A DNA stretch of 64,000 nt from assembly GCA_015232315.1 (NCBI GenBank), contig JADFZZ010000002.1, positions 248,001 to 312,000 of the forward strand, given 5' to 3'. The position numbers and the translations under genes were made by a program. How positions within the stretch are numbered: position 1 is the stretch's first letter; each line of letters begins with the position of its first letter. The notes under the pieces were generated by a model. That model was not told where the DNA came from and did no database searches. It was given only the letters and a program-made list of their open reading frames with translations. Origin of the DNA: SAR324 cluster bacterium. GTDB taxonomy: Bacteria; SAR324; NAC60-12. Shown here one piece after another: positions 22,201 to 63,409 of this stretch.

Positions 22201-23718
22201 TTGTGGACGTTTGGAGAGCACAGCCAGCGGAACATCATTTCCCATGGAACCGATGGCTTCTTCACCTTTTTCTGCCATCGGCTTCATCAATAGCTGAATG
22301 TCTTCCTGGGTATAGCCAAACATCTGCTGACGTTGAATCAGCGTTTTCGTGTTTGTTTTTTGATAATTTTCAGGTTCTGGCAACCCGGAGAGATGGAGCA
22401 TGTTTTGATCCAGCCATTCCTGATAAGGATTCAGGTGGCACATTTGCGCTTTCAATTCGGAATCATCAATGATTCTGCCTTGGCTGGTATCAACCAGAAA
22501 CATTTTTCCCGGTTGCAAACGGCCCTTGCGTTCAATGCGTTGCGGTTCAATCTGGATGGCGCCAACTTCCGAGGCCATCACCACAAAATGATCTTTGGTG
22601 ACAACATATCGTGCGGGTCGCAGACCATTGCGGTCCAGGGTTGCTCCAATCTGGATCCCATTGGAAAATGTCAGTGACGCGGGTCCATCCCAGGGTTCCA
22701 TGAATTGTTCATGGTATTCATAAAAGGCTCGTTTTTCAGCAGAAACATTGGGATCACTCTGCCATGCTTCCGGCACTAGCATCATCACCGCATGGGGCAA
22801 TGAATATCCCGAAAGCACCAGAAATTCCAGGGCGTTGTCCACAGCGGCGGAATCACTTCCATGAGGCATGATCAATGGAAACAATTTTGAAATATCATCA
22901 TACAAGGGGGATTTGAGCGCTTCCTTGCGGGCATTCATCCAGTTGATGTTGCCTCTCAGCGTGTTGATCTCGCCGTTATGTGCCAGATAGCGGAAGGGGT
23001 GCGCCAACGGCCATGTAGGAAATGTATTCGTGCTGAACCGTGAATGCACAATGGCAAGCGCACTGGCAAATTTGGGATCTGACAGGTCCGGATAAAAAGG
23101 TTTGAGCTGGGTTGCGTGCAGCATTCCCTTATAAATCATGGTTCTGGATGACAGGGATGGGATATACAGGTCATTGCCCTGTGTCGTATTCTGAATCAGT
23201 TTTCTGACGACATACAGTTTTCGTTCGAAGATTTCAGGTTCCAATCCGGGAGTGTTTTCTACAAAAATCTGTCTGATCACAGGCTGTACTTTTGCGGCGT
23301 TCTTGCCAACATAATGCGGGTCTGTCGGCACATCTCTCCAGCCCAGAATAGCCAGGCCTTCTTCTGCCAGAACATTTTCAATGATCAAACCACACCGTTG
23401 ACGTTTTTTTTCATCCTGTGGCATAAATACCATGCCCGCACCGTATTTTCCCGGGTCTGGCAACGTTATTTCCAGTGCTTGCGCCTGTTCCACCAGAAAA
23501 TCATGAGGAATCTGTATCATGATTCCGGCACCATCTCCTGTTTCCGGGTCTGCGCCAAGGGCTCCTCGATGTTTCAGGTTGGTCAGCAGTTCTAATGCCT
23601 GCGTGATGATTCCGTGTGATTTTTCACCCTTCATGTGAACAATAAATCCAACTCCGCAACTGTCGTGTTCGAACTGAGGATCATACAGACCTTGTTTTTC
23701 AGGATAATAGGTGTTCAT
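19213..23718 (-). CDS. gltB: Glutamate synthase (NADPH) large subunit
   Basis: Transfers glutamine amide nitrogen to 2-oxoglutarate. The precursor starts [20 protein letters not shown] before Cys21, the amidotransferase nucleophile exposed by cleavage (SCGVGF). Domain order: class II amidotransferase (to about 430), central domain, FMN/synthase TIM barrel ([24 protein letters not shown]), 3Fe-4S cysteines in [19 protein letters not shown], and the C-terminal GxGxG beta-helix ([14 protein letters not shown]). 1501 residues. ATG 23718 has AGGGGT upstream; a six-residue extension lacks support. It heads a unit with the two small genes below 19203 and is divergent from gltD, which is usually its downstream neighbour. 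Confidence 0.97.
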
Positions 23719-24296
23719 CGTTGTACCCCTATGCAAAACAGACGGCTCTTGAGGTTGTCGTCTGAGTGTTTACAATTGCGGTTTTTATGCACTCTAAAAA
23801 CCTTTATATTTAATGGAAGAAACAGGACGAAGTGAGCAGCTCAGACAGTCTTGTCTGAGTGTAGGATAACAGAAACAGTTTCAGGCGGAAGGCAGAACTG
23901 GCAAGTTCCAGAGTGGCTTTGTGAGATTCATTCAAGCAACGCCTTCCCACGAAAACAATTAACAGGTACACATTGATAAAGAGTTATTCCATTCCCTTTG
24001 AACCAGTCACCGTTTGATTCAGGATGATGGTCCCTGTATCTTTCCTGACACTTCAATATGCAAAAATCAGATTCCCTTGGATTGAGGGCAGGTCAAGGTA
24101 AGAAAAAACCAATAAAAACACAACAAGAAAAATTTTTGTCCCTCAAGATTTTTGTATTGAATATGATTGTTATATTGCAGTTGTCTTTCTGTTATGGCTA
24201 TATTGCCCCCCAAAATTGGCTGTTCCTGCCCAGTATATTGTGCATCGCTTGCCTCTCAACGTCCTGATTTCCCTTATTCTGTTACAAGGAGCCAAA
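23719..24296. promoter_or_regulatory. Divergent gltB/gltD control region with two hairpins
   Basis: A 578-base non-coding spacer drives gltB to the left and gltD to the right. Two inverted repeats share the core CAGAC/GTCTG. CAGACG...CGTCTG (23739-23764, 14-base loop) lies inside the presumed gltB leader. CTCAGACA-GTCT-TGTCTGAG (23840-23859) has an 8-bp stem. Either could be an operator for a dimeric regulator or a leader RNA structure. The gltD side is A/T-rich (24100-24190) with no clear -35/-10 pair. No credible gene was found inside. Confidence 0.5.
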
Positions 24297-25841: not shown

Positions 25842-26477
25842 ATGCTGGCTCGTCAAGCAAACCCGTTATTAACGGAAGCTGAGTATCTGGAACAGGAAGA
25901 ACACTCGGAGATCCGTCATGAATACCATCAGGGGGAACTCTATATGATGGCAGGCGGTAGTGCCAATCATGCACGGATTGCGGCTAATTTTTTGATGGAA
26001 TTCCTGATTTTTTTAAAAGATCGTCCTTGTGGCGCACTTGGCTCAGACATGCGGGTCAAGATTGAAATTCCTCCCAAACGCCCCTTGAAATCAGCATCCG
26101 CACATTATGTGTATCCTGATTTTTCAGTCACCTGTGATCCCGCGGATTTGGGAAATGCCAATGCTTTGACCGGGCCAAAAGTGATTGGCGAGGTGCTGTC
26201 CCCTTCCACTGCGGCTTATGACCAGACTCATAAATTTGAATTGTACAAACAGTTGCCTTCCCTGGAGGACTATCTGCTGGTCAGCCAAACTCAAAAACTG
26301 GTGCAGGTGTTCCACCGTCTTCCTTCAAAAATCAACACATGGGAAGTCACGTACTTTTATGAACAGGATGTCCTGCGGATTCCTTCGCTTGATTTCACCT
26401 GTCCTGTAGAGCGGATTTATCATAAAGTCGTTTTTGAGCAGGGCATTGAAATGGTTGGATTTCCATCTGAATCATAA
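25842..26477 (+). CDS. Uma2 family (DUF820) restriction-endonuclease-like protein
   Basis: A 211-residue protein of the Uma2 group, a PD-(D/E)XK-like fold common as multiple paralogues in cyanobacteria and some environmental bacteria. Features: the N-terminal LTEAEYLEQEEHSEIRHEYHQ with GELYMMAGG, catalytic Asp in VYPDFSVTCD, Glu in IGEVLSPST, and the downstream TKFE-like helix (DQTHKFELYKQ). The real function of the family is unclear. The start is ATG 25842. The last 40 bases of the gene and just after it recur at 27231-27270. It begins the accessory patch that runs to about 27270. Confidence 0.9.
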   Translation: MLARQANPLLTEAEYLEQEEHSEIRHEYHQGELYMMAGGSANHARIAANFLMEFLIFLKDRPCGALGSDMRVKIEIPPKRPLKSASAHYVYPDFSVTCDPADLGNANALTGPKVIGEVLSPSTAAYDQTHKFELYKQLPSLEDYLLVSQTQKLVQVFHRLPSKINTWEVTYFYEQDVLRIPSLDFTCPVERIYHKVVFEQGIEMVGFPSES

Positions 26478-31722: not shown

Positions 31723-31882
31723 AAAGATTCCCTAATTTCCCCCAATCCACAAGATTGAATCATGAGGTCAGAGGCGATAATTCCATAAACTGTTTCACTG
31801 GGATTTTATCTTTCAAAAATTTGTGACATGAATCATCTTGAGGGGCGTTGAAACCGATAACCTTTGAATAATCCAACAAGTG

Positions 31883-33004
31883 ATGCGTGCTATGAATGAA
31901 TTGAATCCTTCTGCCAGAATATTGCTCGGGCCTGGTCCCAGCAATATTCATCCTCGTGTGTATCGTGCGTTATCCACCCCGGTTGTGGGCCATCTGGACC
32001 CTGATTTTCTGAAAATAATGGATGAAATTCAGGAAATGCTCAGGATGGTTTTTCAGACAAAAAACCGATTCACCATTGCGGTTTCAGGTACCGGCAGTGC
32101 GGGGATGGAAGCCTCCATTGTCAATGTGGTCGAACCGGGAGATCAGGTGATTGTCGGTTTGAACGGTGTGTTTGGCAATCGTCTGGCTGATGTGGTTTCA
32201 CGTTGCGGCGGCGAAGTGATTCCGTTGACAGCCGATTGGGGACAGCCGATTGAACCTCATCGGGTCGAGGACGCGTTGAAAAAACATAACGGGGTTAAGG
32301 CTGTGGTACTGGTTCATGCAGAAACTTCCACAGGAATTCTTCAGCCACTGGAAGAGATTGGCGTCATGTGCCGCAACCATTCCGCACTGTTCATTGTGGA
32401 TACAGTCACTTCTCTGGGCGGTGTTCCGGTAAAGGTGGATGAATGGGGAATTGATGTGTGTTACAGCGGAACCCAGAAATGTTTGAGCTGTCCTCCGGGA
32501 TTGTCCCCGATGACCTTCAGTGACAAGGCGATGCATGTGATCAAATCCAGAAAAAATAAGGTTCAAAGCTGGTATCTGGACATGAACCTCATTGAAAGTT
32601 ACTGGTCAGAAAGCAACCGGGTTTATCATCACACGGCTCCGGTGAGCATGAACTACGCCTTGAGAGAAGCACTGCGAATTATTCTGGAAGAAGGTCTGGA
32701 TCAACGATTTCAACGCCACCTGGAAAACAGCCATTACCTGATTGATCATTTGAGAGAATCAGGATTGATGCCAGCCGTCGATGCGGCTTATCGACTGCCG
32801 CCTTTGAATGCCATCCGTGTTCCTGAAAATGTGGATGAAATGGCCATCCGAAAAAAACTCCTGCTACAATATGGCATCGAAATTGGAGCGGGGTTGGGGG
32901 AGTTGAAAGGAAAAATCTGGAGAATCGGTTTGATGGGAGAATCCTCCAATAAAGCCAATATTGTTTATCTGCTCCATGCTTTGCGGGAAATCCTTAAACA
33001 TTGA
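31883..33004 (+). CDS. Class V aminotransferase, alanine-glyoxylate / serine-pyruvate type
   Basis: PLP enzyme of the AGXT group (alanine/serine donor, glyoxylate or pyruvate acceptor). Features: [40 protein letters not shown] (cofactor phosphate loop), DTVTSLGG with the cofactor Asp, and the Schiff-base Lys in [14 protein letters not shown], followed by the usual Pro-Gly-Leu. 374 residues, normal length. Start ambiguous: GTG 31880, ATG 31883 or ATG 31892, and none has a strong ribosome site. A small membrane-protein gene follows nine bases later. Whether it serves photorespiration-like glycine metabolism or serine breakdown is not shown by neighbours. Confidence 0.92.
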
Positions 33005-33013
33005 CAGGCAATA

Positions 33014-33331
33014 TTGCGATATATCATCCTTTTTTTAAGCTTATTCATGGCACAGGGTTCTACCAGCGAGGCTTTTGAGTCTCATCGTCTGCTCCTGTTC
33101 GAGAGCCAGGTTTTTTCAGAACAGAGCGGGTGGCCTGTCGCTCGAATGCGGGGTGCTCCGGAAGACGATTTTTCCGCATCCGGAACAGATTCCCGGATTG
33201 CGGAAAACTCATCTGAAGAACTTTCAGGACCACTTTTGTGGTTTGTGGTTTGCGCGTTAGTGACTCCGTGGATTGTGGCGGTGTACTCATTGCGAAAGTT
33301 CTGGAAACTTTGGAAGTCCCATAAAAAATAG
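33014..33331 (+). CDS. Small secreted/membrane protein, unknown
   Basis: A 105-residue frame starting with TTG ten bases after the aminotransferase stop, with AGG upstream. It has a signal-like N-terminus (MRYIILFLSLFMAQGSTSEA), a polar acidic segment, one membrane helix (LLWFVVCALVTPWIVAVY) and a basic tail (KFWKLWKSHKK). This topology (out, then anchored with an inside basic tail) is coherent, which favours a real gene despite the TTG start. No family recognised. Confidence 0.55.
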   Translation: MRYIILFLSLFMAQGSTSEAFESHRLLLFESQVFSEQSGWPVARMRGAPEDDFSASGTDSRIAENSSEELSGPLLWFVVCALVTPWIVAVYSLRKFWKLWKSHKK

Positions 33332-33351
33332 AAAAAAGTTGAGTGTGAATT

Positions 33352-34683
33352 ATGGAAGAACAATATCCCTGGATGACAGCACAACCCAGAAGTTTCTGGA
33401 GAAACAAGGAACATTGTCGCCAGTACCTTTCATGGTTGGGGGAACAGCTTGGATTTGTCAGTAGCGAGGAATTTTATCATTTGAGCCGCGACGTGGTGAA
33501 CAGCAATTTTGGCGAAGAATTGTTGCCTCAATTTCAGGATTCTGTAGCAAAGCTGGTCATGGATATTTTTAATGATCAACCATGGATGCCCTGGAAATTT
33601 GATGAGCAACCTGTTCATTTGTGGCACCAATCCCGTTATTGCAGAGACTATCTGGAATGGCTGGGAAAAGAATTGGGATATACCGACTATGAAGACTGGT
33701 ACAACATTCAGCCTGAAGATTTTTTGGACAATCATGGGCAAGAATTATGGGCTCAAAACAAGGAAAATCCTTATAAAATTTTGAAGGAGGCTTTTCCGCA
33801 CTTTGACTGGAATCCCTGGCTGTTTGAGCATTTGCCGTTGGCTTTTCTGGATTCGGAACAACAACTGAGATCATGGCTGAAATGGATGATCGATGGCCTG
33901 TGTCCTGAGGGCTCCGATGATTTATATGCGGTGACTCCAGACGATTTAGCCAAAGCTGACACAAGACACTGGCTGATTTCAAAACCAGAAATCACGCTGG
34001 AAGCCATTGCCAAATTGCTTTTCCCGGAACATAACTGGCTTTCCTGGAAGTTTCAGGATTGCCCTGAGGCGTTCTGGGCTGATCATGAAAATTGTCAGCG
34101 ATATCTGGAATGGCTGGCTTCCGTTTATCAGATCCATGCTGCGGAGGAATGGTATCAAATCGGAAGGGTTGAGATCACTGAGCATGACGGCACAGGATTG
34201 CTACGGCGTTATCACAATTCTGCACCCTTGGCGATCATGAGTGTGCTGGCTTCATTCCCCTGGGAACCCTCTCGATTCAAGGATCATTGCCACCGTCACC
34301 AGCGATTACGTGAAACACTGACAGAATTATTTGGCAATGAACATTGTCAGGAACACTATCAGCCTGAAAAGGGAATTTCAGCTATACAATATTTTTTACC
34401 CAGCCTTGGAATTGCCCTTGAGTTGTTGACGGAAGACTACGTTTATCCTGTTTTAGCCTTAGGCGGAAAACCAACATTAGCCGCCAGAAAACAGGAGCAA
34501 AAGCAGAAAAAATCATTTTTGAAACAAACTGGAAAAATCTTTGTTGAGATTCCACCAGATGTGATTCCTGATGCGGTCACACTCAAACAACGGCTGTCAT
34601 CTTTTCACAAACAGATTGTTTTTCGTGAGCATCAATCCATTGCGCAATATCAGCTTCCATTTAATATCTCAGAACCTTCCTGA
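33352..34683 (+). CDS. Four-repeat protein with degenerate nuclease-like C-terminal domain
   Basis: 443 residues, no signal. Four repeats of 75-76 residues: 9-83, 84-158, 159-234 and 235-309. Each has the frame (F/L)W-x7-C-x-x-YL-x-WLG-x-x-LG-x6-(D/E)WY-x-(I/V)...G-x-(E/G)LL..., ending FP-x-x-x-W-x-PWKF. The tail (310-443) contains FLPSLGIALELLTEDY and, after a basic stretch RKQEQKQKKSFL, KIFVEIP. That order recalls PD-(D/E)XK nucleases that end D-x-YLPSLxLAIEYQGxxHY...RDxEK...LxEI, but the usual Asp is Gln here (AIQYFLP) and the second acidic residue sits in ALELL. Similar WY/PWKF repeat proteins with a nuclease-like tail occur, to my recollection, in algae and fungi. Monocistronic; mazEF follows. 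Function unknown. Confidence 0.75.
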   Translation: MEEQYPWMTAQPRSFWRNKEHCRQYLSWLGEQLGFVSSEEFYHLSRDVVNSNFGEELLPQFQDSVAKLVMDIFNDQPWMPWKFDEQPVHLWHQSRYCRDYLEWLGKELGYTDYEDWYNIQPEDFLDNHGQELWAQNKENPYKILKEAFPHFDWNPWLFEHLPLAFLDSEQQLRSWLKWMIDGLCPEGSDDLYAVTPDDLAKADTRHWLISKPEITLEAIAKLLFPEHNWLSWKFQDCPEAFWADHENCQRYLEWLASVYQIHAAEEWYQIGRVEITEHDGTGLLRRYHNSAPLAIMSVLASFPWEPSRFKDHCHRHQRLRETLTELFGNEHCQEHYQPEKGISAIQYFLPSLGIALELLTEDYVYPVLALGGKPTLAARKQEQKQKKSFLKQTGKIFVEIPPDVIPDAVTLKQRLSSFHKQIVFREHQSIAQYQLPFNISEPS

Positions 34684-37306: not shown

Positions 37307-39283
37307 TCAGGTTCGCATCAACCAGTCTTTTTTCAATGCGGCAATCCGGTCACGCAATTGGGCGGCAAACTCAAATTCGAGAGCCGCCGCGGCTTTCTGC
37401 ATTTCCTGCTCCATGTTTTTGATGTCTTTTTCTATCTCTTTCCGGTTCCGGTAACCGCCTTCAGATTCCGCCACCATTTCTTCAGGTTCCACAGGTGCCA
37501 GCGAAGGCCCGATCTGTTTGTAAATGGTTTTGGGGGTGATCTGGTGCTGGAGATTGAACGCCATTTGCCTTTCCCGTCGTTTCTGGGTGACTTCGATGGC
37601 GATTTTCATGGAATCCGTCATTTTGTCCGCATACATGAGTACCATGCCATTCACATTTCTTGAGGCACGTCCGCAGGTCTGAATCAAGGATCGGGATGAT
37701 CGCAAAAATCCTTCCTTGTCCGCGTCAAAAATTCCCACCAGAGAAACTTCCGGTAAATCAAGCCCTTCACGCAAGAGATTGATGCCAATCAGCACATCAA
37801 AATCACCTTTACGCAAGTCATGCAGGATTTGTGATCGTTCCACCACGTCAATGTCTGAGTGCATGTAGCGAACCCGCACACCAAGTTCTTCATAATATTC
37901 GGTCAGGTCTTCCGCCATTTTTTTGGTCAGTGTAGTGATCAGCACCCGCTCCTTGCGTTCTACCCGCAGTCGAATTTCATGCAGCATGTCATCCACCTGT
38001 CCCATGACAGGGCGTACCTCAATCACAGGGTCCAGCAGACCTGTGGGGCGAATAACCTGTTCCACTACATAGCCTTTGGATTTGCGGACTTCATCATCGC
38101 CGGGCGTCGCTGAAACATAAATCATCCGGTGTTTGATTTTTTCAAATTCCTCAAATTTGAGAGGCCGGTTATCCAGGGCGGAAGGCAGGCGAAAACCATA
38201 ATCCACCAAGGCGGATTTTCTGGAGTAATCTCCTGCGGCCATCCCTCGAACCTGAGGGAGCGTGACATGACTTTCATCAACAAATATGAGGGAGTCTTCA
38301 GGCAAATAATCAATCAGGGTGATGGGGCAACTTCCGGGTGCTCTGCGTTGCATGATGCGGCTGTAGTTTTCAATGCCATTGCAAAATCCTGTTTCTTCAA
38401 TCATCTCAAGATCATATTCGGTCCGTTGTTTGAGCCGATGGTATTCAATCAGTTTGCCCTGCTGTTGGAATAGCGCCAGTTGTTCTGCCAGTTCCTGCCG
38501 GATCATTTCCATGGTTTGCGGCAGATAATCGGCAGGCATCACATAATGCGAGGACGGAAAAATCGAAACTTTCGCCAGGTTTTCAAGTTTTTTTCCTGTC
38601 AACGGTTCGACTTTGCTGAGTGCTTCAATTTCATCACCAAACAATTCAATACGAATCGCGAATTCCGCTTCGGCCAGAAACACTTCAACCACATCGCCCC
38701 GAACCCTGACGGTGCCCCGGTGGAAATCAAAATCATTGCGCTCATACTGCATGGCGATCAACTGTTCGAGGATGCGTGTCCGACTGAGAGATTTTCCAGC
38801 TTCCAGCGTCAGGCTCATACTGCTGTAATCTTCAGGCGATCCAAGGCCATAGATGCAGGACACACTGCTGACAATGACCACATCCTGCCGTTCAAACAGG
38901 GATCTGGTGGCAGACAGGCGCAAACGGTCCAGTTCATCGTTTACGGCAGTGTCTTTTTCGATGTAAAGATCTCTTGCCGCGACATAGGCTTCAGGCTGGT
39001 AGTAATCGTAGTAACTCACAAAATATTCCACAGCGTTTTCCGGAAAAAACGCCTTGAACTCATTGTAGAGCTGGGCGGCCAGGGTTTTGTTGTGTGCCAT
39101 GACCAGTGCCGGACGATTCCATTTCTGAATCAGATTGGCCATGGTGAAGGTTTTCCCTGACCCGGTGATCCCCAGCAAAACCTGATGTTTCTTATTATCC
39201 CGAATGCCTTGATACAGTTTCTCAATGGCTTCCGGCTGATCTCCCTGTGGAGTAAATTCAGCCTGAATTTTGAAGTTTCCCAT
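37307..39283 (-). CDS. uvrB: Excinuclease ABC subunit B
   Basis: Damage-verification helicase of nucleotide excision repair. Features in order: Walker A LLGITGSGKT (about 37-46), the beta-hairpin EYFVSYYDYYQPEAYV, Walker B region VDESHVTLPQ, helicase motif V/VI LREGLDLPEV and QTCGRASRN, and the C-terminal UVR motif that binds UvrC. 658 residues, normal length. It ends three bases before the lipoprotein gene stop (convergent). The 348-base upstream gap (39284-39631) holds the element at 39363-39520. uvrA and uvrC are not in this window. Confidence 0.98.
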   Translation of the reverse strand: MGNFKIQAEFTPQGDQPEAIEKLYQGIRDNKKHQVLLGITGSGKTFTMANLIQKWNRPALVMAHNKTLAAQLYNEFKAFFPENAVEYFVSYYDYYQPEAYVAARDLYIEKDTAVNDELDRLRLSATRSLFERQDVVIVSSVSCIYGLGSPEDYSSMSLTLEAGKSLSRTRILEQLIAMQYERNDFDFHRGTVRVRGDVVEVFLAEAEFAIRIELFGDEIEALSKVEPLTGKKLENLAKVSIFPSSHYVMPADYLPQTMEMIRQELAEQLALFQQQGKLIEYHRLKQRTEYDLEMIEETGFCNGIENYSRIMQRRAPGSCPITLIDYLPEDSLIFVDESHVTLPQVRGMAAGDYSRKSALVDYGFRLPSALDNRPLKFEEFEKIKHRMIYVSATPGDDEVRKSKGYVVEQVIRPTGLLDPVIEVRPVMGQVDDMLHEIRLRVERKERVLITTLTKKMAEDLTEYYEELGVRVRYMHSDIDVVERSQILHDLRKGDFDVLIGINLLREGLDLPEVSLVGIFDADKEGFLRSSRSLIQTCGRASRNVNGMVLMYADKMTDSMKIAIEVTQKRRERQMAFNLQHQITPKTIYKQIGPSLAPVEPEEMVAESEGGYRNRKEIEKDIKNMEQEMQKAAAALEFEFAAQLRDRIAALKKDWLMRT

Positions 39284-43730: not shown

Positions 43731-44057
43731 TTAGTTGCTGACAGCTTGCGCTACCATGGATTTGATCCGTTGAGGATCATTTCCGGTAAAGATGTTGACC
43801 TGCTTGCCATCCTTGTAAAGAATGATCGTAGGAATTCCACGAATTCCGTATCTGGACGCGACTTCCTGGTTATTGTCCACATCGACTTTGCAGATTTTAA
43901 CTTTTCCATCATAGGTTTCCGCCAGTTCATCAATGGTGGGGGCCAGTGCCCGGCAGGGACCACACCATTCCGCCCAGAAATCCACCAGTGAATAGCCTGA
44001 ACTGATTTCTCCGTCAAACGATGCATCGGTTAAATGCACTACTTTCTGACTTGCCAT
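43731..44057 (-). CDS. trxA: Thioredoxin
   Basis: Cytoplasmic disulfide reductant of 108 residues. Active-site Cys32 and Cys35 are in FWAEWCGPCRALAP. The conserved cis-Pro lies in GIRGIPTIILYKDGK, and the end is GNDPQRIKSMV. Length and motifs are standard. First gene of the trxA-truA unit. The 224-base upstream gap (44058-44281) includes a 28-bp perfect palindrome. Confidence 0.97.
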   Translation of the reverse strand: MASQKVVHLTDASFDGEISSGYSLVDFWAEWCGPCRALAPTIDELAETYDGKVKICKVDVDNNQEVASRYGIRGIPTIILYKDGKQVNIFTGNDPQRIKSMVAQAVSN

Positions 44058-44213
44058 AAGAAGACTCCAACAAAGTTAACTTCAAAACCCTGCTACCCTT
44101 ATGGCAACAGGCTCCGTTTGAATTGAACGCTATACATAACTTGAGGTAATCCAAAAATCAAGGCCCTGCTCCAAGTTCTCAAATACCCCTGACTTCTCAA
44201 AGAAATCCAACCG

Positions 44214-44241
44214 TAGGGGCGGTTCGCGAACCGCCCCTACA
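44214..44241. repeat. 28-bp perfect palindrome (REP-like)
   Basis: The half-site GTAGGGGCGGTTCG is followed directly by its exact reverse complement. It can form a hairpin or cruciform, but no T tract follows on either strand. It has the same ends and length as the palindrome at 29506-29533, and similar GGGGC ends occur beside the 39363-39520 element. Confidence 0.75.
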
Positions 44242-44281: not shown

Positions 44282-45124
44282 TCATGTTTCGGATGGATGG
44301 GTGAACAGATGAACATCTCTCTGGGGAAACGGAATCGAGATGCCTTCTTCATCAAAGCGGTTTTTTACTTTTTCCATGATGTCAAAATAGACTTCCCAGT
44401 AATCGGGCGTTTTGATCCAGGGGCGGACTGCTATGTTCAGGCTGCTGTCGGCCATTTCCAGCAAGCCGATGACAGGGATGGGATCTTTAAGAACTTTATC
44501 ATGCTGTTCAAGAATATCTTTTAAAATGTTTTTGACTTTTTTCAGATCAGAATTGTAGGCGACGCCAAACACGAAATCAATTCTTCTCGTGGGCTTGCTC
44601 ACATAATTGATGATTTTATCAGCCATCATGGTGGAATTGGGAACTACCACCACCTTGTTGTCCGGAGTACGCATTTGTGTTGTCAGGATATGGATTTCTT
44701 CAGCGGTTCCCAAAATTCCAGCGCCTTCGATCAGGTCGCCCACACGGAATGGTCTGAAAATAATGATCAACACCCCGGCCGCGAAATTGGAGAGAGAGCC
44801 CTGAAGTGCCAGGCCGATGGCAAGTCCAGCCGCACCAATCACCGCAATCAATGACGCCGTCTGGATTCCAATCTGGTTCAAGGCCGCCAGAATCACAAAC
44901 AGCATGCTTCCAAAATAAACAATATGTGACGTGAACAGGGTCAGTGTTTCATCCACTTTGGCCCGGTGCAAGGCTTTGACCGTCACATCTCTCAGAATAC
45001 GGGATGCCAGTCGCCCCAAAAACAGGATCAGTAACGCGCCCAGAAGATGGAGTCCGTATTCTGTAAAAAGAGTCTGAAGGTAGGGAATCATGTTTTTTAT
45101 ATCAATGGGAATATCAGCACTCAT
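44282..45124 (-). CDS. Small-conductance mechanosensitive channel (MscS family)
   Basis: Inner-membrane osmotic safety valve of 280 residues, close to classical MscS. There are three N-terminal membrane helices. The pore helix carries the Gly/Ala-rich signature (GAAGLAIGLALQGSLSNFAA) followed by GVLIIIFRPFRVGDLIE. The cytoplasmic beta and alpha-beta domains end in FDEEGISIPFPQRDVHL. It starts 14 bases after the TPR lipoprotein gene and is probably the last gene of that three-gene unit. Confidence 0.93.
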   Translation of the reverse strand: MSADIPIDIKNMIPYLQTLFTEYGLHLLGALLILFLGRLASRILRDVTVKALHRAKVDETLTLFTSHIVYFGSMLFVILAALNQIGIQTASLIAVIGAAGLAIGLALQGSLSNFAAGVLIIIFRPFRVGDLIEGAGILGTAEEIHILTTQMRTPDNKVVVVPNSTMMADKIINYVSKPTRRIDFVFGVAYNSDLKKVKNILKDILEQHDKVLKDPIPVIGLLEMADSSLNIAVRPWIKTPDYWEVYFDIMEKVKNRFDEEGISIPFPQRDVHLFTHPSET

Positions 45125-48423: not shown

Positions 48424-51400
48424 ATGCAGGCCACTATGTCCAATCAACAACGCAACTCTGATCTGTCCTCGCTCGTAGACACTATTCTCGAAAATCTTAC
48501 CAGTGAGTCGCTAAAGCAATATGGAAAATTATTTCTCGCGAATATGTCCAGAAAATCCATTGACGGAACCGTGTTTTCAGAAATGCTCAGGTTTCTTGAA
48601 AATCGGTTCGAGTTTTTTGAACAGGCTGTGAATGAACCCTTCCAGATCAGAATCACCCCCCAGGTTGTTTCCGCGCATCAAGAAAAAATGATTGTGATGG
48701 ATGTGGTGTATCCGGATGTCCCTTACGCGCTTATGACGATTGATAGCCTGCTGAGGGACATGGAATTAAGGATTATCAGAAAAATCCATATGATTGCGGC
48801 TATTGAAGCGGGTCCTGACAAGCATATCCTTCATTCACCTCATGACGCACGCTATCCCCAATTTTGTCATGTGTATATCGAACTTGAATACTTTGAAAAC
48901 GCGGAACTTCTGGACCGCTTGCGCTTGCGTATTGAAGCTCATTTACAAGCGGCTCAGCAGATCAATCGGGACAAAAACGCCATGTTGAAGTTGCAGGATG
49001 AGATTCGTCGTAAAGTGGATCACTATGAGGAAGATCTTCCAGAACCCCAGGAAGAATGGTTGAACCTGCTGGAATGGATGGGGAACCAGAATTTCACGCT
49101 TATGGGCTATATCTGCTATAACCAGACTGGAAAAACCGGGAAACTGTCGGCAGAGCCTGAGCGCTGTCTGGGGATTCTGTCACAGGAATACCAGCGGAAA
49201 TATCCTTCCAGGCTCCAGGATATTCTCACCGCGCATATCTGGAAAAACCAGCAGATGCCTTCACCATTTCATATTGATACACTCAAAGCGGCGAGTCCTG
49301 TGCTGTCTTTAATTCCACTGATGTGTATGGGGTTCCGCTTCAAGGAACCGGATGGTTCCGTCTCGACGCATGTGTTGGTGGGGTTGATCCGTCGAAGTTC
49401 GTTGCATGTCAAGAATATTGAAATGCCGCTGATTCACCTCAAAATGAAATATATTTTTGAACAGAAACACCTGGTGCCAGACAGCTATGAGTATAATGCA
49501 GTGATACGGGCTTTCAGCGCGATTCCCAAACATGAGCTGTTTCGTTCATCGGCCGCAAATCTGCTACAACGTTTTGATGATCTTCAATCCATCAACGCGC
49601 CTGACCGGATTCATTGTTTTCAATACCGCCATCCCTCGAAGAATCAGGTGCATTTCATGGTTGTAATTCCCTCGCAGATTTTCACAGAAAACAATCTGGA
49701 AAAAATTATCGAATGCCTGGAACAACAGGTGCCGCATGAGGATATGGAAGTGATTCAGGTTCAGGGGGAGGAAAAAAACTGGATTGATATGTATTTTGAT
49801 CTGCATGGAGACGCTTCGTGGACATTGGATATCACTCAGCTTGAAGAAACGCTTTCCGCTCTGGTTCAACCCTGGAACGAACGCCTTCGTCATGTGCTTC
49901 GCGAAGACTATGCTGACAATATCGCTCAGGAACTGTTTGACCGTTATGTGGCATTGATGCCTGAACATTACAGGGTCCGAACTTCTCCACAGGACGCGGT
50001 CAGGGATATCCGCTATTTTGAAAAAGCAATTCACGAGCGGGAACTGCAATATAATCTGGTGCCCTTCACCATCCCCACCGATCTGGCGTATAAGGTTTCA
50101 CTATTTTATGTTTACAGTCTGGAAAAAATTGATCTCAATCACATCATGCCGGTTTTACAAAACATGGGGTTGTACGTGATTGATCAACTGACAGTGCGTA
50201 TTGGCGATTATCAGCACACCCTGGGTTTTTTGCAGACTTTCAGGGTGCAGTCTCTTGACGAAAAACGGATTGATGAAGAGAAATTTCATCATTTGCTGGG
50301 AACCCTGCTGGTGAAGGTGTTGAACCAGGCCACCGAAAATGATCCGTTGAATGCCCTGGCATTGAATGTCGGACTCAATTGGCGTTCCATCAACGTTCTC
50401 ATGGCATATCGGAATTTATATCTTCAACTTGGTGCTTCGGTAAGTCGGCAGAAAATTCATAATGCGCTGTTGTCACATCCCCGGAGTACAAGAATGTTGT
50501 TTGAATTGTTTGAAACACGGTTTTCACCAGACGATGGCTATGGTTCCAGGGAGTACCGGCAGGAAATTCTGGTTCCCGAATTAAAACAACATTTTCTGGA
50601 TAGTCTGGCGGATGTGGAGGATGTTGAAGAAGATCTGGTTTTCAGAAGATTGTTCAATCTCATCGAATATACCTTGCGCACCAGTTTTTATACCGGGCGA
50701 GTGAGTGATTCCAGTCTGGTCGCGTTCAAACTCGATTCAGCCAAAGTGGACCACATGCCTGTTCCCGCGCCGTTTCGTGAAATCTATGTTCATGATGTCG
50801 GTTTCGAAGGCACACATTTAAGGTTTGGCCGTGTGGCGCGTGGAGGAATTCGCTGGTCAGACCGTCCTGATGATTTCAGAAAGGAAATATTGGGGCTGGT
50901 CAAAACCCAACAGAAAAAAAATGTGGTCATTGTGCCGGTAGGATCCAAAGGCGGGTTTGTGATCAAAAAACAGCCGGCCTCCAGAGATCTATGGCTTCAG
51001 GAAGGGCAACACCAGTATGAAAAATTCATCAGTGCCCTGTTGGATCTGACAGATAATGTGGATGCTCGCGGGCATGTCACCCATCCTGCCCAGGTGATGG
51101 TGTATGATGAACAGGATGCTTATCTGGTTGTGGCGGCAGATAAGGGAACGGCCAGTTTTTCAGATTTTGCCAATGCCATATCCGGGCGCTATCAATTCTG
51201 GTTGGGTGATGCGTTCGCTTCTGGCGGAAGCGTTGGTTATGACCACAAAAAAGAAGGCATCACCGCACGAGGCGCATGGGAATGTGTCAAACTGCATTTT
51301 CACGAAATGGGACATGATATTCAAACACAAATCACCTCTGTCACCGGGGTGGGGGATATGTCGGGTGATGTGTTTGGAAACGGAATGCTACTGAGTCGTG

Positions 51401-53232
51401 TTCTGAAATTGCGGGCCGCGTTCAATCATGCGCATATTTTTCTGGATCCTGATCCTGATCCTGAAACAAGTTGGACGGAACGTAAAAGAATGTTTGAGCT
51501 CCCACGTTCTACCTGGAAAGATTATAATCCCCAACTGATCAGCGCCGGGGGCGGGGTCTATGACCGAAAGGCCAAAAGCATTAAATTGTCCAATGAAGTG
51601 CGGCAGATGCTTGGAATTTCTTCGGAATATCTCACTGGCGACGAAATGGTCAGGGCCCTTCTGAAAATGGAAACGGACCTTCTCTGGCTTGGCGGCATTG
51701 GCACCTATATCAAGGCGAGCCAGGAGTCCCATGCTCAGGTTGGCGATCAGGCCAATGACGCGGTGCGGATTGATGCTACTGAATGTCGGGCAAAGGTGAT
51801 CGGTGAGGGAGCCAACCTTGGCTTGACCCAACTGGGGAGAATTGAATTCAATCGTGCCGGCGGCAAACTGAATACGGATGCCATTGATAATTCCGCCGGG
51901 GTCAATATGTCTGACTATGAGGTGAATCTGAAGATTTTGCTACAGCAAATGCTGAGATCCGGAGAGTTTAAAAATATAGAGGAACGAAACCAGACGTTAA
52001 GGGTGGCGACGGATCAGGTTTCCAGACTGGTTCTGGAAAATAATATTGGCCAACATCAGTCCATCTCGATGGATTCGCTACGTTCCAACAGACAGTTGAG
52101 AATATTTTCCCGACTGATCGCGTCCCTTGAAACGCAAGGTATGAGCCGTCGTAGCGAATTCATCCCGATTCCCAGCGAACTGGCTAAACTGGAACATGAA
52201 AAAGCCCCACTGCCCCGTCCTGTTCTGGCTGTCGTTCTGGCTTATGCCAAAATGGGGATCTATGAGGCGTTGTTGAAGTCAACCCTGTGTGAGGATCCAT
52301 TTCTTCGAGAACTTTATGAAGGCTATTTTCCGGAAACAATTTTAGCTCGATGCCGGGCGTTCATTGATCAACATCAATTGAAGCGACAAATTATCGCGAC
52401 CGTTTTGACCAATTCTATCTTGAATGAAGCAGGTTCCGCCTTCTTCTTTCAGGTTGGACAATCCTGTCAACAGACGGTCGAAGTCATTGCCCGGGCATAT
52501 CTGCTGGTCTATCACGGCATGAACGGGGTCTCGCTGATGAATGCTGTCCGGCAAAGTCAGGGGGTGAGTCAGCAACAAAAATATGACGCGGTATTATTGT
52601 TTCAGGAGCGGATAAAATCTTTAACGGAATATTTATTGAGCGTTTCCCGCGAGGGCATTGATCTGGCGGATCTTGCCGGGTTCAAAAACACACTGGATCA
52701 ATTGTTTCAGTTGTATCGTGAGGTCAATAAAGAAAAACTGAGCAGAGACTCCTCTGTATGGGAACAATCCGGATTTTCAAAGGAAATTTCTCAAACTCTT
52801 GGTCTGCTTCAATTACTGGGCAACATTCCGGAGGTTCTCTATCTCCATCGTCAGGAAAAACAGGAATTGAACACAGCTCTGCGTGTGACCCTGTTGCTGG
52901 ATGACTTGCTCGGCTTTGGCTGGATCAGGGAACGCCTGAACACGCTGACTTTGCAAAATGAATGGGAACAGACACATCAGGAGATGTTGATCCAATCTCT
53001 GGAAACCAGTAAACGGAAGATATTCCATGGTGTGATCCAGTCGCATGCGGAGGGAACGTTGCAGGCGTTGACCAGCGAACGTTTATTGGGAACGTTCAAA
53101 CATCACCAGCCTCAGGCTGTGGATGGTTATTTTCAAACTCTGGAGCAGTTGAGATATGGTGCGCCGGTTAATCTTTCGACATTGGCGGTTTGTCTTCATC
53201 GTCTCGGTTTTCTGGCTCCGGTAAATTTATAA
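48424..53232 (+). CDS. NAD-specific glutamate dehydrogenase, large (about 180 kDa) type
   Basis: Catabolic NAD-GDH (GdhB/Gdh180 class) that deaminates glutamate to 2-oxoglutarate; about 1600 residues against about 450 for ordinary GDH. A long N-terminal regulatory half (ACT-like segments) is followed by the catalytic core with GRVARGGIRWSDRPDDFRKE, the catalytic-Lys loop VPVGSKGGFVIKK, and SVTGVGDMSGDVFGNGML plus KVIGEGANLG for nucleotide binding. The C-terminal tail is helical. Alternative ATG at 48436 has AGG upstream. manC begins ten bases after the stop. Its degradative role opposes GltBD, so the two should be inversely regulated. Confidence 0.95.
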   Translation: MQATMSNQQRNSDLSSLVDTILENLTSESLKQYGKLFLANMSRKSIDGTVFSEMLRFLENRFEFFEQAVNEPFQIRITPQVVSAHQEKMIVMDVVYPDVPYALMTIDSLLRDMELRIIRKIHMIAAIEAGPDKHILHSPHDARYPQFCHVYIELEYFENAELLDRLRLRIEAHLQAAQQINRDKNAMLKLQDEIRRKVDHYEEDLPEPQEEWLNLLEWMGNQNFTLMGYICYNQTGKTGKLSAEPERCLGILSQEYQRKYPSRLQDILTAHIWKNQQMPSPFHIDTLKAASPVLSLIPLMCMGFRFKEPDGSVSTHVLVGLIRRSSLHVKNIEMPLIHLKMKYIFEQKHLVPDSYEYNAVIRAFSAIPKHELFRSSAANLLQRFDDLQSINAPDRIHCFQYRHPSKNQVHFMVVIPSQIFTENNLEKIIECLEQQVPHEDMEVIQVQGEEKNWIDMYFDLHGDASWTLDITQLEETLSALVQPWNERLRHVLREDYADNIAQELFDRYVALMPEHYRVRTSPQDAVRDIRYFEKAIHERELQYNLVPFTIPTDLAYKVSLFYVYSLEKIDLNHIMPVLQNMGLYVIDQLTVRIGDYQHTLGFLQTFRVQSLDEKRIDEEKFHHLLGTLLVKVLNQATENDPLNALALNVGLNWRSINVLMAYRNLYLQLGASVSRQKIHNALLSHPRSTRMLFELFETRFSPDDGYGSREYRQEILVPELKQHFLDSLADVEDVEEDLVFRRLFNLIEYTLRTSFYTGRVSDSSLVAFKLDSAKVDHMPVPAPFREIYVHDVGFEGTHLRFGRVARGGIRWSDRPDDFRKEILGLVKTQQKKNVVIVPVGSKGGFVIKKQPASRDLWLQEGQHQYEKFISALLDLTDNVDARGHVTHPAQVMVYDEQDAYLVVAADKGTASFSDFANAISGRYQFWLGDAFASGGSVGYDHKKEGITARGAWECVKLHFHEMGHDIQTQITSVTGVGDMSGDVFGNGMLLSRVLKLRAAFNHAHIFLDPDPDPETSWTERKRMFELPRSTWKDYNPQLISAGGGVYDRKAKSIKLSNEVRQMLGISSEYLTGDEMVRALLKMETDLLWLGGIGTYIKASQESHAQVGDQANDAVRIDATECRAKVIGEGANLGLTQLGRIEFNRAGGKLNTDAIDNSAGVNMSDYEVNLKILLQQMLRSGEFKNIEERNQTLRVATDQVSRLVLENNIGQHQSISMDSLRSNRQLRIFSRLIASLETQGMSRRSEFIPIPSELAKLEHEKAPLPRPVLAVVLAYAKMGIYEALLKSTLCEDPFLRELYEGYFPETILARCRAFIDQHQLKRQIIATVLTNSILNEAGSAFFFQVGQSCQQTVEVIARAYLLVYHGMNGVSLMNAVRQSQGVSQQQKYDAVLLFQERIKSLTEYLLSVSREGIDLADLAGFKNTLDQLFQLYREVNKEKLSRDSSVWEQSGFSKEISQTLGLLQLLGNIPEVLYLHRQEKQELNTALRVTLLLDDLLGFGWIRERLNTLTLQNEWEQTHQEMLIQSLETSKRKIFHGVIQSHAEGTLQALTSERLLGTFKHHQPQAVDGYFQTLEQLRYGAPVNLSTLAVCLHRLGFLAPVNL

Positions 53233-59976: not shown

Positions 59977-61212
59977 CTATTGCATGATTGGCGCACGCTT
60001 GAGGACAGCCTGCTGGTCGCTGGTCAGTGTTTTCTGTTCAATATTAACATCGGCGGTCCAAAACATCAGGTTGGTTCCATCTTTATCCTGGCATGTACTG
60101 GCTGTTGGACTGCTCAGTGGACACTCGGGAGTATCCGCAAGGGGGTCAAAATCGCTCCCGGTGCTTTCTGTGGTGTGATAAAGTCCCAGCCAATGCCCCA
60201 TTTCATGGGCCATCGTTTCTCCCAGAATTCTGGCATGTAAATCGGGCGCTTGTCCGGATGATGCCTGATCATGGGCCGCCAAACCGATAAGAACACCATT
60301 GTGTCTGTCTTCAATTCCATGGGGACCTGGAATGCCGCTGGAAATTCCCAGCAGAGTCCCACCCAGAGTCCCTGGAATTGTCAAATCTTCCGCCAATATA
60401 AGGTTTACCTGCGTTGTGCCGCCTGAACAAACAACTTTGGCGGTGTTCGTTGCTGTAAAATCACCTGATATGGTCGCATATTCATCGCCTGTAACGGTAG
60501 TGATATCTTTCAATTCCAGAGTGATACCTGCCAGTTTATAAATTTCGACCATATGTTCCAGCGATGCTGTCAAATTGCTACTGGTGTAACGCGTTCCTGT
60601 CAGATAAGGTTTGACAACCAGTATCGGCGATTCAGTGTAGGTTCCGCTTCGAATAGCGACATACGCACTGGCCGATTGAACTGAACTCAACACGACAGCG
60701 GTCCATGTTCCCGGAATGAGGGTGGTTGTTGGCAGAGAAGGTTCCCATGTTATGCCAAAATCTCCCAGCACACATTCGGATACATAATCTTTGCTGTTCG
60801 GATCAAACAGGTAACATATTCCCAAAGAAGGCGGTGATGTTGTGGGGGAACTTTCAAATGCGGAAACATGAAAAGAAATGGCATCATTCGGGACTGCGAA
60901 CGATTGTTGGCTGTAATACAAACCGTTACCACCCTGAAATTCCTTGAAGGCCGGAAGGCTGAGTTTGCTTACGGAAAGTTTGGAGTTGGCACGCGCCGCA
61001 ACGACGTGATCCACCGAGTCTTTATAGAATGTTCGTGCCGACCCTGCACAGTCAGAGGAGGTTGTGGGCGTGATTACTACCGGATCTTCAGTGGTGTCTT
61101 CGGTGCTTTTTGAACTGCTGGAGCTATCTTTGGTACGGTCTGCGCAGCCTGTAATAATGATCAGGAAGCTGGTGAAGAACAGGATTGTTTTCATGAAAAA
61201 TGAAGCATGCAT
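59977..61212 (-). CDS. Secreted lipoprotein zinc metalloprotease
   Basis: A 411-residue lipoprotein. Lipobox IITGC gives Cys23, and a Ser/Thr-rich linker follows (SSSSSKSTEDTTED). A non-catalytic beta region occupies about 100-270. The metzincin site HEMGHWLGLYH (336-346: HExxHxxGxxH) is followed by a Met-turn at NLMFW (Met383). Spacing and Cys pairs (PECPLSSP, TCQDKD) suit an M43/pappalysin-like protease. ATG 61212 has AAGGG upstream; ATG 61194 is internal. Probably a surface protease on an outside-facing lipoprotein. Substrate unknown. It lies just downstream of, and on the same strand as, the WYL regulator. Confidence 0.85.
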   Translation of the reverse strand: MHASFFMKTILFFTSFLIIITGCADRTKDSSSSSKSTEDTTEDPVVITPTTSSDCAGSARTFYKDSVDHVVAARANSKLSVSKLSLPAFKEFQGGNGLYYSQQSFAVPNDAISFHVSAFESSPTTSPPSLGICYLFDPNSKDYVSECVLGDFGITWEPSLPTTTLIPGTWTAVVLSSVQSASAYVAIRSGTYTESPILVVKPYLTGTRYTSSNLTASLEHMVEIYKLAGITLELKDITTVTGDEYATISGDFTATNTAKVVCSGGTTQVNLILAEDLTIPGTLGGTLLGISSGIPGPHGIEDRHNGVLIGLAAHDQASSGQAPDLHARILGETMAHEMGHWLGLYHTTESTGSDFDPLADTPECPLSSPTASTCQDKDGTNLMFWTADVNIEQKTLTSDQQAVLKRAPIMQ

Positions 61213-61364: not shown

Positions 61365-62240
61365 TCAGGCAGGCATCATTTCCGCTAATTCTTCCCGGTT
61401 TAAAAGAATGATTTGTTGTTCTTCAGGATTTCTCCATTTTTCAATTTGTTCATCATCCACACGAAGCAATACCAGCAGGTAGAGTAACATGGAACGCCTG
61501 ACAGGAATCACAAGCTTTCCCTGGTCCATGCCATAATCTCTGGAAATGATAGTCTGTTGATCGGCAGTCAGTCCCGGGTGTGGTCCAATCATAACATTGA
61601 CCCAGGTATGCCACCATTCATCCTCAGAAAAATTGACTTCTTCAGGTTGAGGCAGGCGTACATCCAGGATTCGCCCGAGCACAAAATCCCTGAAACTGTT
61701 GGTACGAAAACAGTAGGCACGGATATGCCAACGAAAGCCGTCTGTGCCAAACGCATGAGGGGCAATGCGTCTCCATTTGGGAGTGATACGGGTTAAGGAT
61801 TGATACTGGATTTCCACAGATTGATGATTCTGGATGCAATTGAGTAAAACGCGCAGATATTCCACACTGATTTGTCGTCGGGGAAATGTCAGGGTTGCCA
61901 CTTCAGGAGTGCTACCTAAAAAATGAAAATCAGAGGTTTCCTGGTTGAGATAGCGCAATTCATTGAGTAGATTTTCCGCACTTGGCTCATAGATGATGGT
62001 CTGAAAGGTGTCAGTCGCATAAAATATTTTGGCGCTACTGTCGTATACCATGTTTTTAGGCGCCAGGGTTTGATATTGTTTAAGATCGGCAGTCGCTTGA
62101 GGCAATGAAATCCTGAACCTTGCCGACAAGTCACCACGATTCAGACTTCCCCGCCAGAATAATAAAAAATCAATAAATTCCAGTCTTTTGACAACATCCC
62201 ATTTCTTGTTGCGCATCTGCGCTTTGATATCTACGGCCAT
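61365..62240 (-). CDS. WYL-domain transcriptional regulator, BrxR/CapW-like
   Basis: 291 residues. The N-terminal winged helix (VVKRLEFIDFLLFWRGSLNR, ISLPQATADLKQYQTLAPKN, YDSSAKIFYAT) follows the BrxR/CapW pattern (FIEFRLxWxGxxNRxDL, ISxPQASxDLxxYxxLAPxN). A WYL core follows (IQYQSLTRITPKWRRIAPHA, GFRWHIRAYC, FVLGRI), then a WCX-like end. AGGAG precedes ATG 62240. BrxR-family regulators usually repress phage-defence loci, but no defence gene is nearby here. A perfect 9-bp palindrome 42 bases upstream is a likely self-operator. The match is by pattern, not by search. Confidence 0.88.
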   Translation of the reverse strand: MAVDIKAQMRNKKWDVVKRLEFIDFLLFWRGSLNRGDLSARFRISLPQATADLKQYQTLAPKNMVYDSSAKIFYATDTFQTIIYEPSAENLLNELRYLNQETSDFHFLGSTPEVATLTFPRRQISVEYLRVLLNCIQNHQSVEIQYQSLTRITPKWRRIAPHAFGTDGFRWHIRAYCFRTNSFRDFVLGRILDVRLPQPEEVNFSEDEWWHTWVNVMIGPHPGLTADQQTIISRDYGMDQGKLVIPVRRSMLLYLLVLLRVDDEQIEKWRNPEEQQIILLNREELAEMMPA

Positions 62241-62281
62241 CGGTCTCCTGCATCAAATCAACGGTTGTGATGATTTCACCA

Positions 62282-62315
62282 TGATTAGTTGAACTAATCA
62301 GTCAGTTATTTAACT
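62282..62315. promoter_or_regulatory. Palindromic operator candidate for the WYL regulator
   Basis: TGATTAGTT-G-AACTAATCA (62282-62300) has exact 9-bp arms around one base, followed at once by AGTTA-TT-TAACT (62304-62315). The two share AGTT/AACT half-sites. The site is 42 bases before the regulator's ATG and 132 before the divergent epimerase gene, so one dimer site could control both. It is AT-rich, typical of wHTH operators. Confidence 0.65.
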
Positions 62316-62431
62316 AAATAAATAGTCTGATAGGTATCTTTGATCGGTTTTGCAAGTTGTTTCTTGATTATCCTCAACGACTCAGGCTACACCTGTAACC
62401 AGGAAATATAACCGCAAAATGGGGAGGATTC

Positions 62432-63409
62432 ATGAAATTAAAAGGAAAAAGAATTTTTATCACCGGGATTGGTGGATTTATTGGAAAACGGTTTGCGGAA
62501 ATCGCCCTTGAACAGGGTATGACCGTGACGGGTATTGATATCTCGGATTCAGCGCTAGTTGATATTCGGCGGATGGGGATTGACGCGACCCTGGGAGATA
62601 TCACGGATTATCAGCAAATGAGACAACTCATCACGGATGTTGATATTGTCTTCCACACAGCGGCCATTGTGAAAGAAGGTGGAACAATGCAAAGCTTCCG
62701 GAAAATCAATGTTGAAGGCAGTTATAATGTGGCAAAAGCCGCAAAAATGAATGGTTGTCCCACATTTGTTCACTTGTCCAGTGTGATGGTCTATGGGTTC
62801 AATTTTCCTGCGCAAATTACAGAAGAGGGCCCTTTTCGGGGAGAAAACAATCCTTACTGTCAAACAAAAATTGAAAGTGAACGTGTTGTCATGGCGCTCA
62901 ATGAACCGGGGTTCGGTGTTATTGTGATACGTCCCGGAGATGTTTATGGTCCGGGTTCAATACCGTGGGTGGTTCGCCCTATTGAGTTGATGAGGAAAAG
63001 ATTGTTGCCACTGGTGAAAGGTGGGAACGGGATTATCAATCATGTGTTTGTTGACAATCTGATTGATGGAATTTTATTGGCGATCAAACAGCAGCGTTAT
63101 GGCGAAGCCTTCAATATTTCAGATGGCGGTGAAACAACCTGGAGAGATTATTTTACCCAACTGGCAAAAGTCGCAAAGGTTCCAATCCCGGTTTCATTGC
63201 CGATGATGGTGCTTATTCCTGTCACGGAATTGATGGGGAAACTCTATGATTTGGGAATTATTGAAACAGAAATCAGGAGAGATGGCTTGAATTATGTCGC
63301 GCGTCCAAGCAGTTATTCGATTGATAAAGCACGGAAAGTCCTGGGCTATGAACCCAGGATTTCATTAGAAGACGGGATGGCCAGAATTGGTCAATGGCTG
63401 AAGCGATAA
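62432..63409 (+). CDS. NAD(P)-dependent epimerase/dehydratase (extended SDR)
   Basis: A 325-residue extended short-chain dehydrogenase of the 3-beta-HSD/sugar-epimerase type. Cofactor motif TGIGGFIG (11-18), HTAAIV, and catalytic Tyr142/Lys146 in YCQTK. The C-terminal substrate half has RPGDVYGPGS, NHVFVDNLIDGI and FNISDGGETTWRDY. GGGGAGG supports ATG 62432. Substrate (sugar nucleotide, steroid-like or other) cannot be inferred. Divergent from the WYL regulator and perhaps under its control. Convergent with the MBL-fold gene. Confidence 0.88.
   Translation: MKLKGKRIFITGIGGFIGKRFAEIALEQGMTVTGIDISDSALVDIRRMGIDATLGDITDYQQMRQLITDVDIVFHTAAIVKEGGTMQSFRKINVEGSYNVAKAAKMNGCPTFVHLSSVMVYGFNFPAQITEEGPFRGENNPYCQTKIESERVVMALNEPGFGVIVIRPGDVYGPGSIPWVVRPIELMRKRLLPLVKGGNGIINHVFVDNLIDGILLAIKQQRYGEAFNISDGGETTWRDYFTQLAKVAKVPIPVSLPMMVLIPVTELMGKLYDLGIIETEIRRDGLNYVARPSSYSIDKARKVLGYEPRISLEDGMARIGQWLKR

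Follow-up and report, generated by a model that had tools for sequence, protein, structure and literature searches.

A WYL-domain repressor gene and its neighbours

The window, i.e. the whole 64-kb stretch of DNA that was analysed, contains on its minus strand (61365..62240) a gene coding for a 291-aa wHTH-WYL-WCX repressor of the CapW/BrxR family, the ATG of which (62240) is preceded by an AGGAG-type ribosome-binding site as read by eye. A 191-bp intergenic region separates it from a divergent gene on the plus strand (62432..63409) that codes for an SDR/epimerase of 325 aa and is a candidate target of the regulator. Downstream of the WYL gene and on the same strand, 152 bp after its stop codon, follows a metalloprotease-like lipoprotein gene (59977..61212, minus strand) as a weaker candidate. 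The first-pass annotation had described the two neighbours in these terms, and Pfam agrees, with an Epimerase/SDR match for the former and Reprolysin_5 and Reprolysin_3 matches narrowly above the cut-offs for the latter. With respect to composition, GC3 is 0.449 for the WYL gene and 0.429 for the SDR gene, and the codon usage of the WYL gene is near that of its neighbours; these values are not outlying enough to indicate a recent transfer.

Gene switches of the CapW/BrxR type normally guard anti-phage defence genes. In the protein encoded here Pfam recognises a WYL domain only (E 6.1e-11), and a search against solved structures returns CapW of P. aeruginosa as the top match (7tb5, E 1.6e-57), together with two further CapW structures (7tb6, 1.5e-53; 9c5g, 1.2e-50) and the BrxR structures 7t8k (1.2e-40) and 7qfz (8.2e-32), the homology extending at E 1.6e-57 to 8.2e-32 over the full length (residues 9-289). 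In a fold search with a structure model of the protein (pLDDT 87.3, alignment of 25 sequences), the first 15 matches are CapW/BrxR chains aligned over the whole length, with CapW of S. maltophilia as the strongest, followed by PafBC and DriD. The TM-scores against CapW/BrxR are modest (0.48-0.57), which is attributed to the uncertain domain arrangement in a single chain, so that the fold match is judged by E-value and coverage. The CapW/BrxR pattern that had been proposed from the N-terminal winged helix thus extends to the entire wHTH, WYL and WCX fold.

Identity in structure alignments is 35-38% with CapW (P. aeruginosa PA17, 7tb5; S. maltophilia, 7tb6; R. leguminosarum, 9c5g), with which the protein shares the full-length wHTH-WYL-WCX organisation as well as the conserved DNA-contact and ligand-site residues. 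It resembles BrxR (Acinetobacter, 7t8k/7t8l; E. fergusonii, 7qfz) in fold, domain order and a predicted operator upstream of its own gene, but is more distant from it in sequence (28-30%). For DNA binding by S. maltophilia CapW, the part of the published study available to us (PMC9122588) names R32, S42, Q45 and S47, and for the CapW ligand site Y145, S147, W156, R169, H171, R183, F185 and R189. By alignment count, the equivalents are R35, S45 and Q48, which are kept, and T50 as a conservative replacement of S47, while the ligand-site positions are occupied by Y146, S148, R157, R170, H172, R184, F186 and R190. The characteristic site in which histidine replaces the WYL tyrosine is therefore present, with H172 itself and all but one of the seven other named residues kept, and S47>T and W156>R are the sole changes at the named CapW residues; at the latter position (R157) each of the 17 rows of alignment A2 has arginine.

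The protein departs from the other 16 rows at seven of 63 conserved columns, which is more than most rows do and less than the row L016 (19 of 65), and it sits on a long tree branch (2.34). The gene looks intact but fast-evolving; the deviating columns and the branch length would fit a loosened constraint as well.

A predicted paired operator in the divergent region

The intergenic region contains an exact palindrome with 9-bp arms, TGATTAGTT-G-AACTAATCA (62282..62300, no strand assigned), which is the likely main operator. As noted in the first-pass annotation, it lies between the two divergent genes, upstream of the WYL gene and 42 bases from its start; 41 bases separate it from the ATG, and it ends 131 bases before the SDR start. 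A second inverted repeat (62306..62321, likewise without strand) with 7-bp arms and a 2-bp spacer has a TAGTT core too and is the likely second operator, its centre being 22.5 bp from that of the palindrome. This spacing of about two helical turns would suit two dimers bound side by side, and the two elements probably form a paired auto-operator. CapW genes, too, have a palindrome of about 19 bp a short way upstream. Published CapW/BrxR operators, as far as the available sources describe them, are imperfect palindromes; their half-sites are spaced by 5 bp (the value published for BrxR), or they measure 19-24 bp in total.

In 3000 dinucleotide shuffles of the 191-bp region, perfect repeats with arms of at least 9 and a spacer of at most 8 arose 30 times, and four times when the spacer was limited to at most 1. 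With a TAGTT/AACTA core as an additional requirement, the latter class was found in none of the 3000 shuffles, and repeats with arms of at least 7 and a spacer of at most 3 in two. Perfect arms of at least 9 with a spacer of at most 8 occur at four distinct places in the window, and the palindrome itself is found there once at up to three mismatches (0.03 expected). The proposed role of the palindrome as an operator is likely in view of these shuffles and of the core shared with the upstream regions of relatives (see below). No strong promoter overlaps the predicted operator: the best hexamer pairs of the intergenic region score 8/12, and a promoter scan lists none in it. Elsewhere in the window, a perfect palindrome with 14-bp arms, GTAGGGGCGGTTCGCGAACCGCCCCTAC, lies at 44213-44240 in the gap between the ORFs 43731-44057 and 44282-45124.

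In the 19 upstream regions of relatives that were analysed first, AACTAT/AAACTA were prominent among the 6-mers, in several loci about 35-60 bases before the start. A hold-out set was compiled from 51 relatives on viral contigs. An upstream stretch of 100 bases or more was available for 49 of them, and removal of near-duplicates reduced these to 34; start codons were picked by script, and two of the 34 (L081 and L087) reside on the same contigs as the discovery loci L043 and L044. TAGTT/AACTA was present in 16 of these 34 regions, compared to a mean of 5.3 and a maximum of 14 in 400 shuffles, and was the second most enriched 5-mer after AGAAA (20/34 vs 6.2). ATAGTT was found in ten regions, against a shuffle mean of 1.8 and a maximum of 7, and CTAGTT in five, against a mean of 1.2 and a maximum of 6. 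However, TTAGTT, the hexamer of the palindrome at 62282-62300, was not enriched (1/34 vs 1.6 expected), so that the half-site of the family supports the operator assignment via five of its six bases. Conservation of the full palindrome across the family was not found, since full palindromes vary among relatives and the core alone is common; by eye, the register of the core relative to the dyad seems to shift by one base from relative to relative. The (A/C)TAGTT core is common to the upstream regions of many elements (L049-L099), whatever system follows, and is possibly a general half-site of the CapW/BrxR family, as judged from these upstream sequences.

Genomic context of the gene and of its relatives

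In line with the first-pass annotation, which had reported no defence system at the locus, a PADLOC scan of 58 ORFs, 43 in the window and 15 in the 18 kb beyond it, yielded only generic or weak matches over 61 kb on the downstream and 18 kb on the upstream side of the WYL gene. The scan covered this range except for a 1602-aa ORF (48424-53232), two small ORFs (2-361 and 33060-33407) and an ORF cut off at the distal end of L009. At E<=1e-8 there were 13 families, mad2 among them, each matching in one ORF; they do not form a system, and the matches that were traced are generic, weak or non-specific. This applies to HEAT-ARM_XIII (L009:14208-17210), HTH_VI (L009:11578-12558), SspA/DndA (ORF 31880-33004), PbeA (ORF 37307-39283) and TIR, PycTIR and PycC, which fall on one common ORF (L009:6578-9163, residues 11-155); hidden defence genes were accordingly rejected for the scanned stretch. 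The PADLOC candidate family PDC-S03 (ORF 25842-26477, E 2.2e-27) is an isolated match 35 kb away from the WYL gene, and the ORF 19213-23736, scanned in one run, had no match. PglZ had no match in the whole genome at E<=0.001. Unlike CapW, and unlike the CBASS- or BREX-associated subset of the family in general, the gene thus has no adjacent CBASS or other defence operon among the 58 ORFs, and it further differs from BrxR in that the genome, lacking PglZ, has no BREX. Further differences from CapW are the threonine in place of Ser47 and the TTAGTT core of the predicted operator.

Within the phylum, which comprises the same 52 genomes as the class and no other member of the genus among them, the WYL gene was found in four genomes. 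Two copies head defence operons, one a type I restriction operon (G018) and the other, a distant homologue in G049, lying directly before the Zorya genes ZorA, ZorB, a weak ZorC and ZorD (L045:883-8564), and two, including the one studied here, do not. The remaining copy (G010) is split across two contig ends with eight common bases by eye (L012 and L013; contigs C84 and C454), a split that could reflect either a break in the assembly or the insertion of a repeat with target duplication. It is preceded by a glyoxalase-family gene and followed by a cadherin/FG-GAP lipoprotein gene, and the three neighbouring ORFs that were scanned had no PADLOC match. As this copy is 42% identical to the window copy and to that of G018 alike, and as the window protein falls into no well-supported group of the tree (81/83 at the nearest fork, flagged for a long branch), a special clade of orphans together with G010 was ruled out. 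No close homologue was found, the best identity being about 43%.

Among further relatives, 12 plasmid loci were chosen out of 671 records that had a match. By our reading of the annotation, nine of them have named defence or restriction-type genes within 6 kb (BREX, CBASS, type I restriction, DNA methylase, ThiF/multiubiquitin and AbiEi), and L031, L040 and L041 are ambiguous. For the copies on viral contigs, 42 scanned neighbours match 121 PADLOC families in the pooled data, with type I restriction, DrmD/DrmA and helicases at the top, and the nearest named relative, from a Nitrosomonadales MAG, adjoins ThiF/E1-E2-type genes. In the available part of the survey by Picton et al. (PMC9122601), 164 of 347 BrxR homologues have defence genes within 50 kb downstream and 212 when both sides are counted, which leaves 39-52% without a known defence system nearby; inverted repeats were found upstream of 193 of the homologues, and Deltaproteobacteria are given as having none. 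An orphan with an upstream repeat therefore falls within the known range.

Candidate targets and evolutionary interpretation

The first-pass annotation had offered two ways out of the missing defence system, namely that the neighbours form an unrecognised regulated set or that the target is elsewhere. The former is only partly tenable. The metalloprotease lipoprotein is present in 27 of the 52 genomes, and the loci of its relatives that were checked have no WYL, SDR or alanine dehydrogenase gene alongside (tandem pairs of these relatives occur at G005:C93 and G010:C7). For the SDR, no relative at E<=1e-40 was found elsewhere in the phylum (51 genomes), and tblastn of both proteins against 88 non-self loci placed neither near a WYL gene. 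The locus data do not demonstrate control over either neighbour; its position makes the SDR gene a possible target. As to the latter, the palindrome at up to three mismatches occurs in three places across the 88 contigs (5.25 Mb) of the genome, just as often as a reversed-pattern control, and the other two places lie within coding ORFs (L014 and L015). In the absence of a second site above chance, a target in trans is unlikely.

Taken together, we favour, at a probability of about 0.52, an intact CapW/BrxR-family orphan that acts as a homodimer on a paired operator, represses itself and probably also the SDR gene, and is released by ssDNA. Put more plainly, this would be a clean but ordinary case within a known family, probably autoregulated and possibly in control of the SDR gene, and most likely with no target other than itself and perhaps the one enzyme gene beside it. 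We infer that a homodimer would bind the palindrome at 62282-62300 and a second dimer probably the repeat at 62306-62321, so that the bound protein would repress its own promoter; the SDR gene at 62432 would probably be repressed too, because the predicted sites sit in the shared 191-bp divergent region. By analogy to published CapW work, ssDNA arising from DNA damage or phage replication would enter the WYL pocket and release the repressor: CapW/BrxR is described in the available part of PMC13373217 as repressing until ssDNA is bound, and the structure 9c5g is titled as CapW bound to ssDNA. The computed features in favour of this reading are the full-length sequence and fold match, the conserved residues, a non-random operator with the family core (TAGTT in 16 of 34 regions), its single genomic locus and the defence-free neighbourhood. 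Against it stand the unenriched TTAGTT, the lack of a strong promoter overlapping the operator, the purely positional case for the SDR gene and the fast evolution of the protein (branch 2.34, 7/63 columns differing).

The main rival, clearly less probable and yet to be taken seriously, is a relic of a lost island or a solitary regulator, which arrived with a defence operon or used to head one that has since disappeared, now represses only itself and is unrelated to its neighbours. This would be in line with the association of most relatives with defence operons (nine of 12 plasmid loci, type I restriction in G018, Zorya in G049), with the sparse distribution in the phylum (4/52), with flanking genes that are not linked to WYL genes elsewhere, and with the long branch. 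However, with its intact ORF, conserved ligand-site residues and perfect palindrome the gene has apparently been retained, and its GC3 (0.449) and near-native codon usage do not suggest an obviously recent arrival. Rather more doubtful is the co-option of a CapW-type ssDNA-sensing repressor from defence, in a phylum in which its relatives still head defence operons, by which DNA damage would be coupled to an ordinary host gene, the SDR or the secreted metalloprotease lipoprotein, via the paired TAGTT operator.

That the WYL gene and a neighbour, either the metalloprotease lipoprotein or the SDR, constitute an unrecognised defence or stress-response set seems improbable. The WYL homologue of G010, a genome of the same family, likewise has a same-strand lipoprotein gene directly behind it and a divergent metabolic gene in front, and there is a precedent in SiwR of M. 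smegmatis, which, according to the available part of PMC10693628, is a WYL regulator that binds ssDNA and acts on adjacent genes not known as defence genes. However, the G010 lipoprotein belongs to another family (cadherin, FG-GAP), the metalloprotease is widespread without a WYL gene, and neither neighbour accompanies one in the 88 other loci. SiwR, likened here by description, is an activator of DinB/YfiT-like genes in that source. Still less credence is given to control of a distant defence system in trans, e.g. a type I restriction locus, which was rejected on the genome-wide operator scan and the five HSDR_N matches on other contigs. One of these has a copy of the palindrome with four mismatches (L102:204-222) lying roughly 300 bp ahead of a type I HsdR ORF; this is, however, about chance level, as some 20 sites at up to four mismatches are expected in 5.25 Mb by our own arithmetic, sites at up to three mismatches do not exceed the control count, and the other four HSDR_N loci have no site better than seven mismatches. 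Least plausible of all is that the palindrome serves another regulator or arose by chance: repeats under the looser arm and spacer limits do appear in shuffles (30/3000), but the core and position fit the family and the second site has the same core.

The locus provides a clean test case with a single predicted operator locus for the targets of those 39-52% of BrxR homologues that, according to the available part of PMC9122601, have no known defence system nearby, and the TAGTT/AACTA core offers a simple handle for operator prediction across the wider family. If the SDR gene is indeed a target, an ssDNA sensor would here serve outside immunity.
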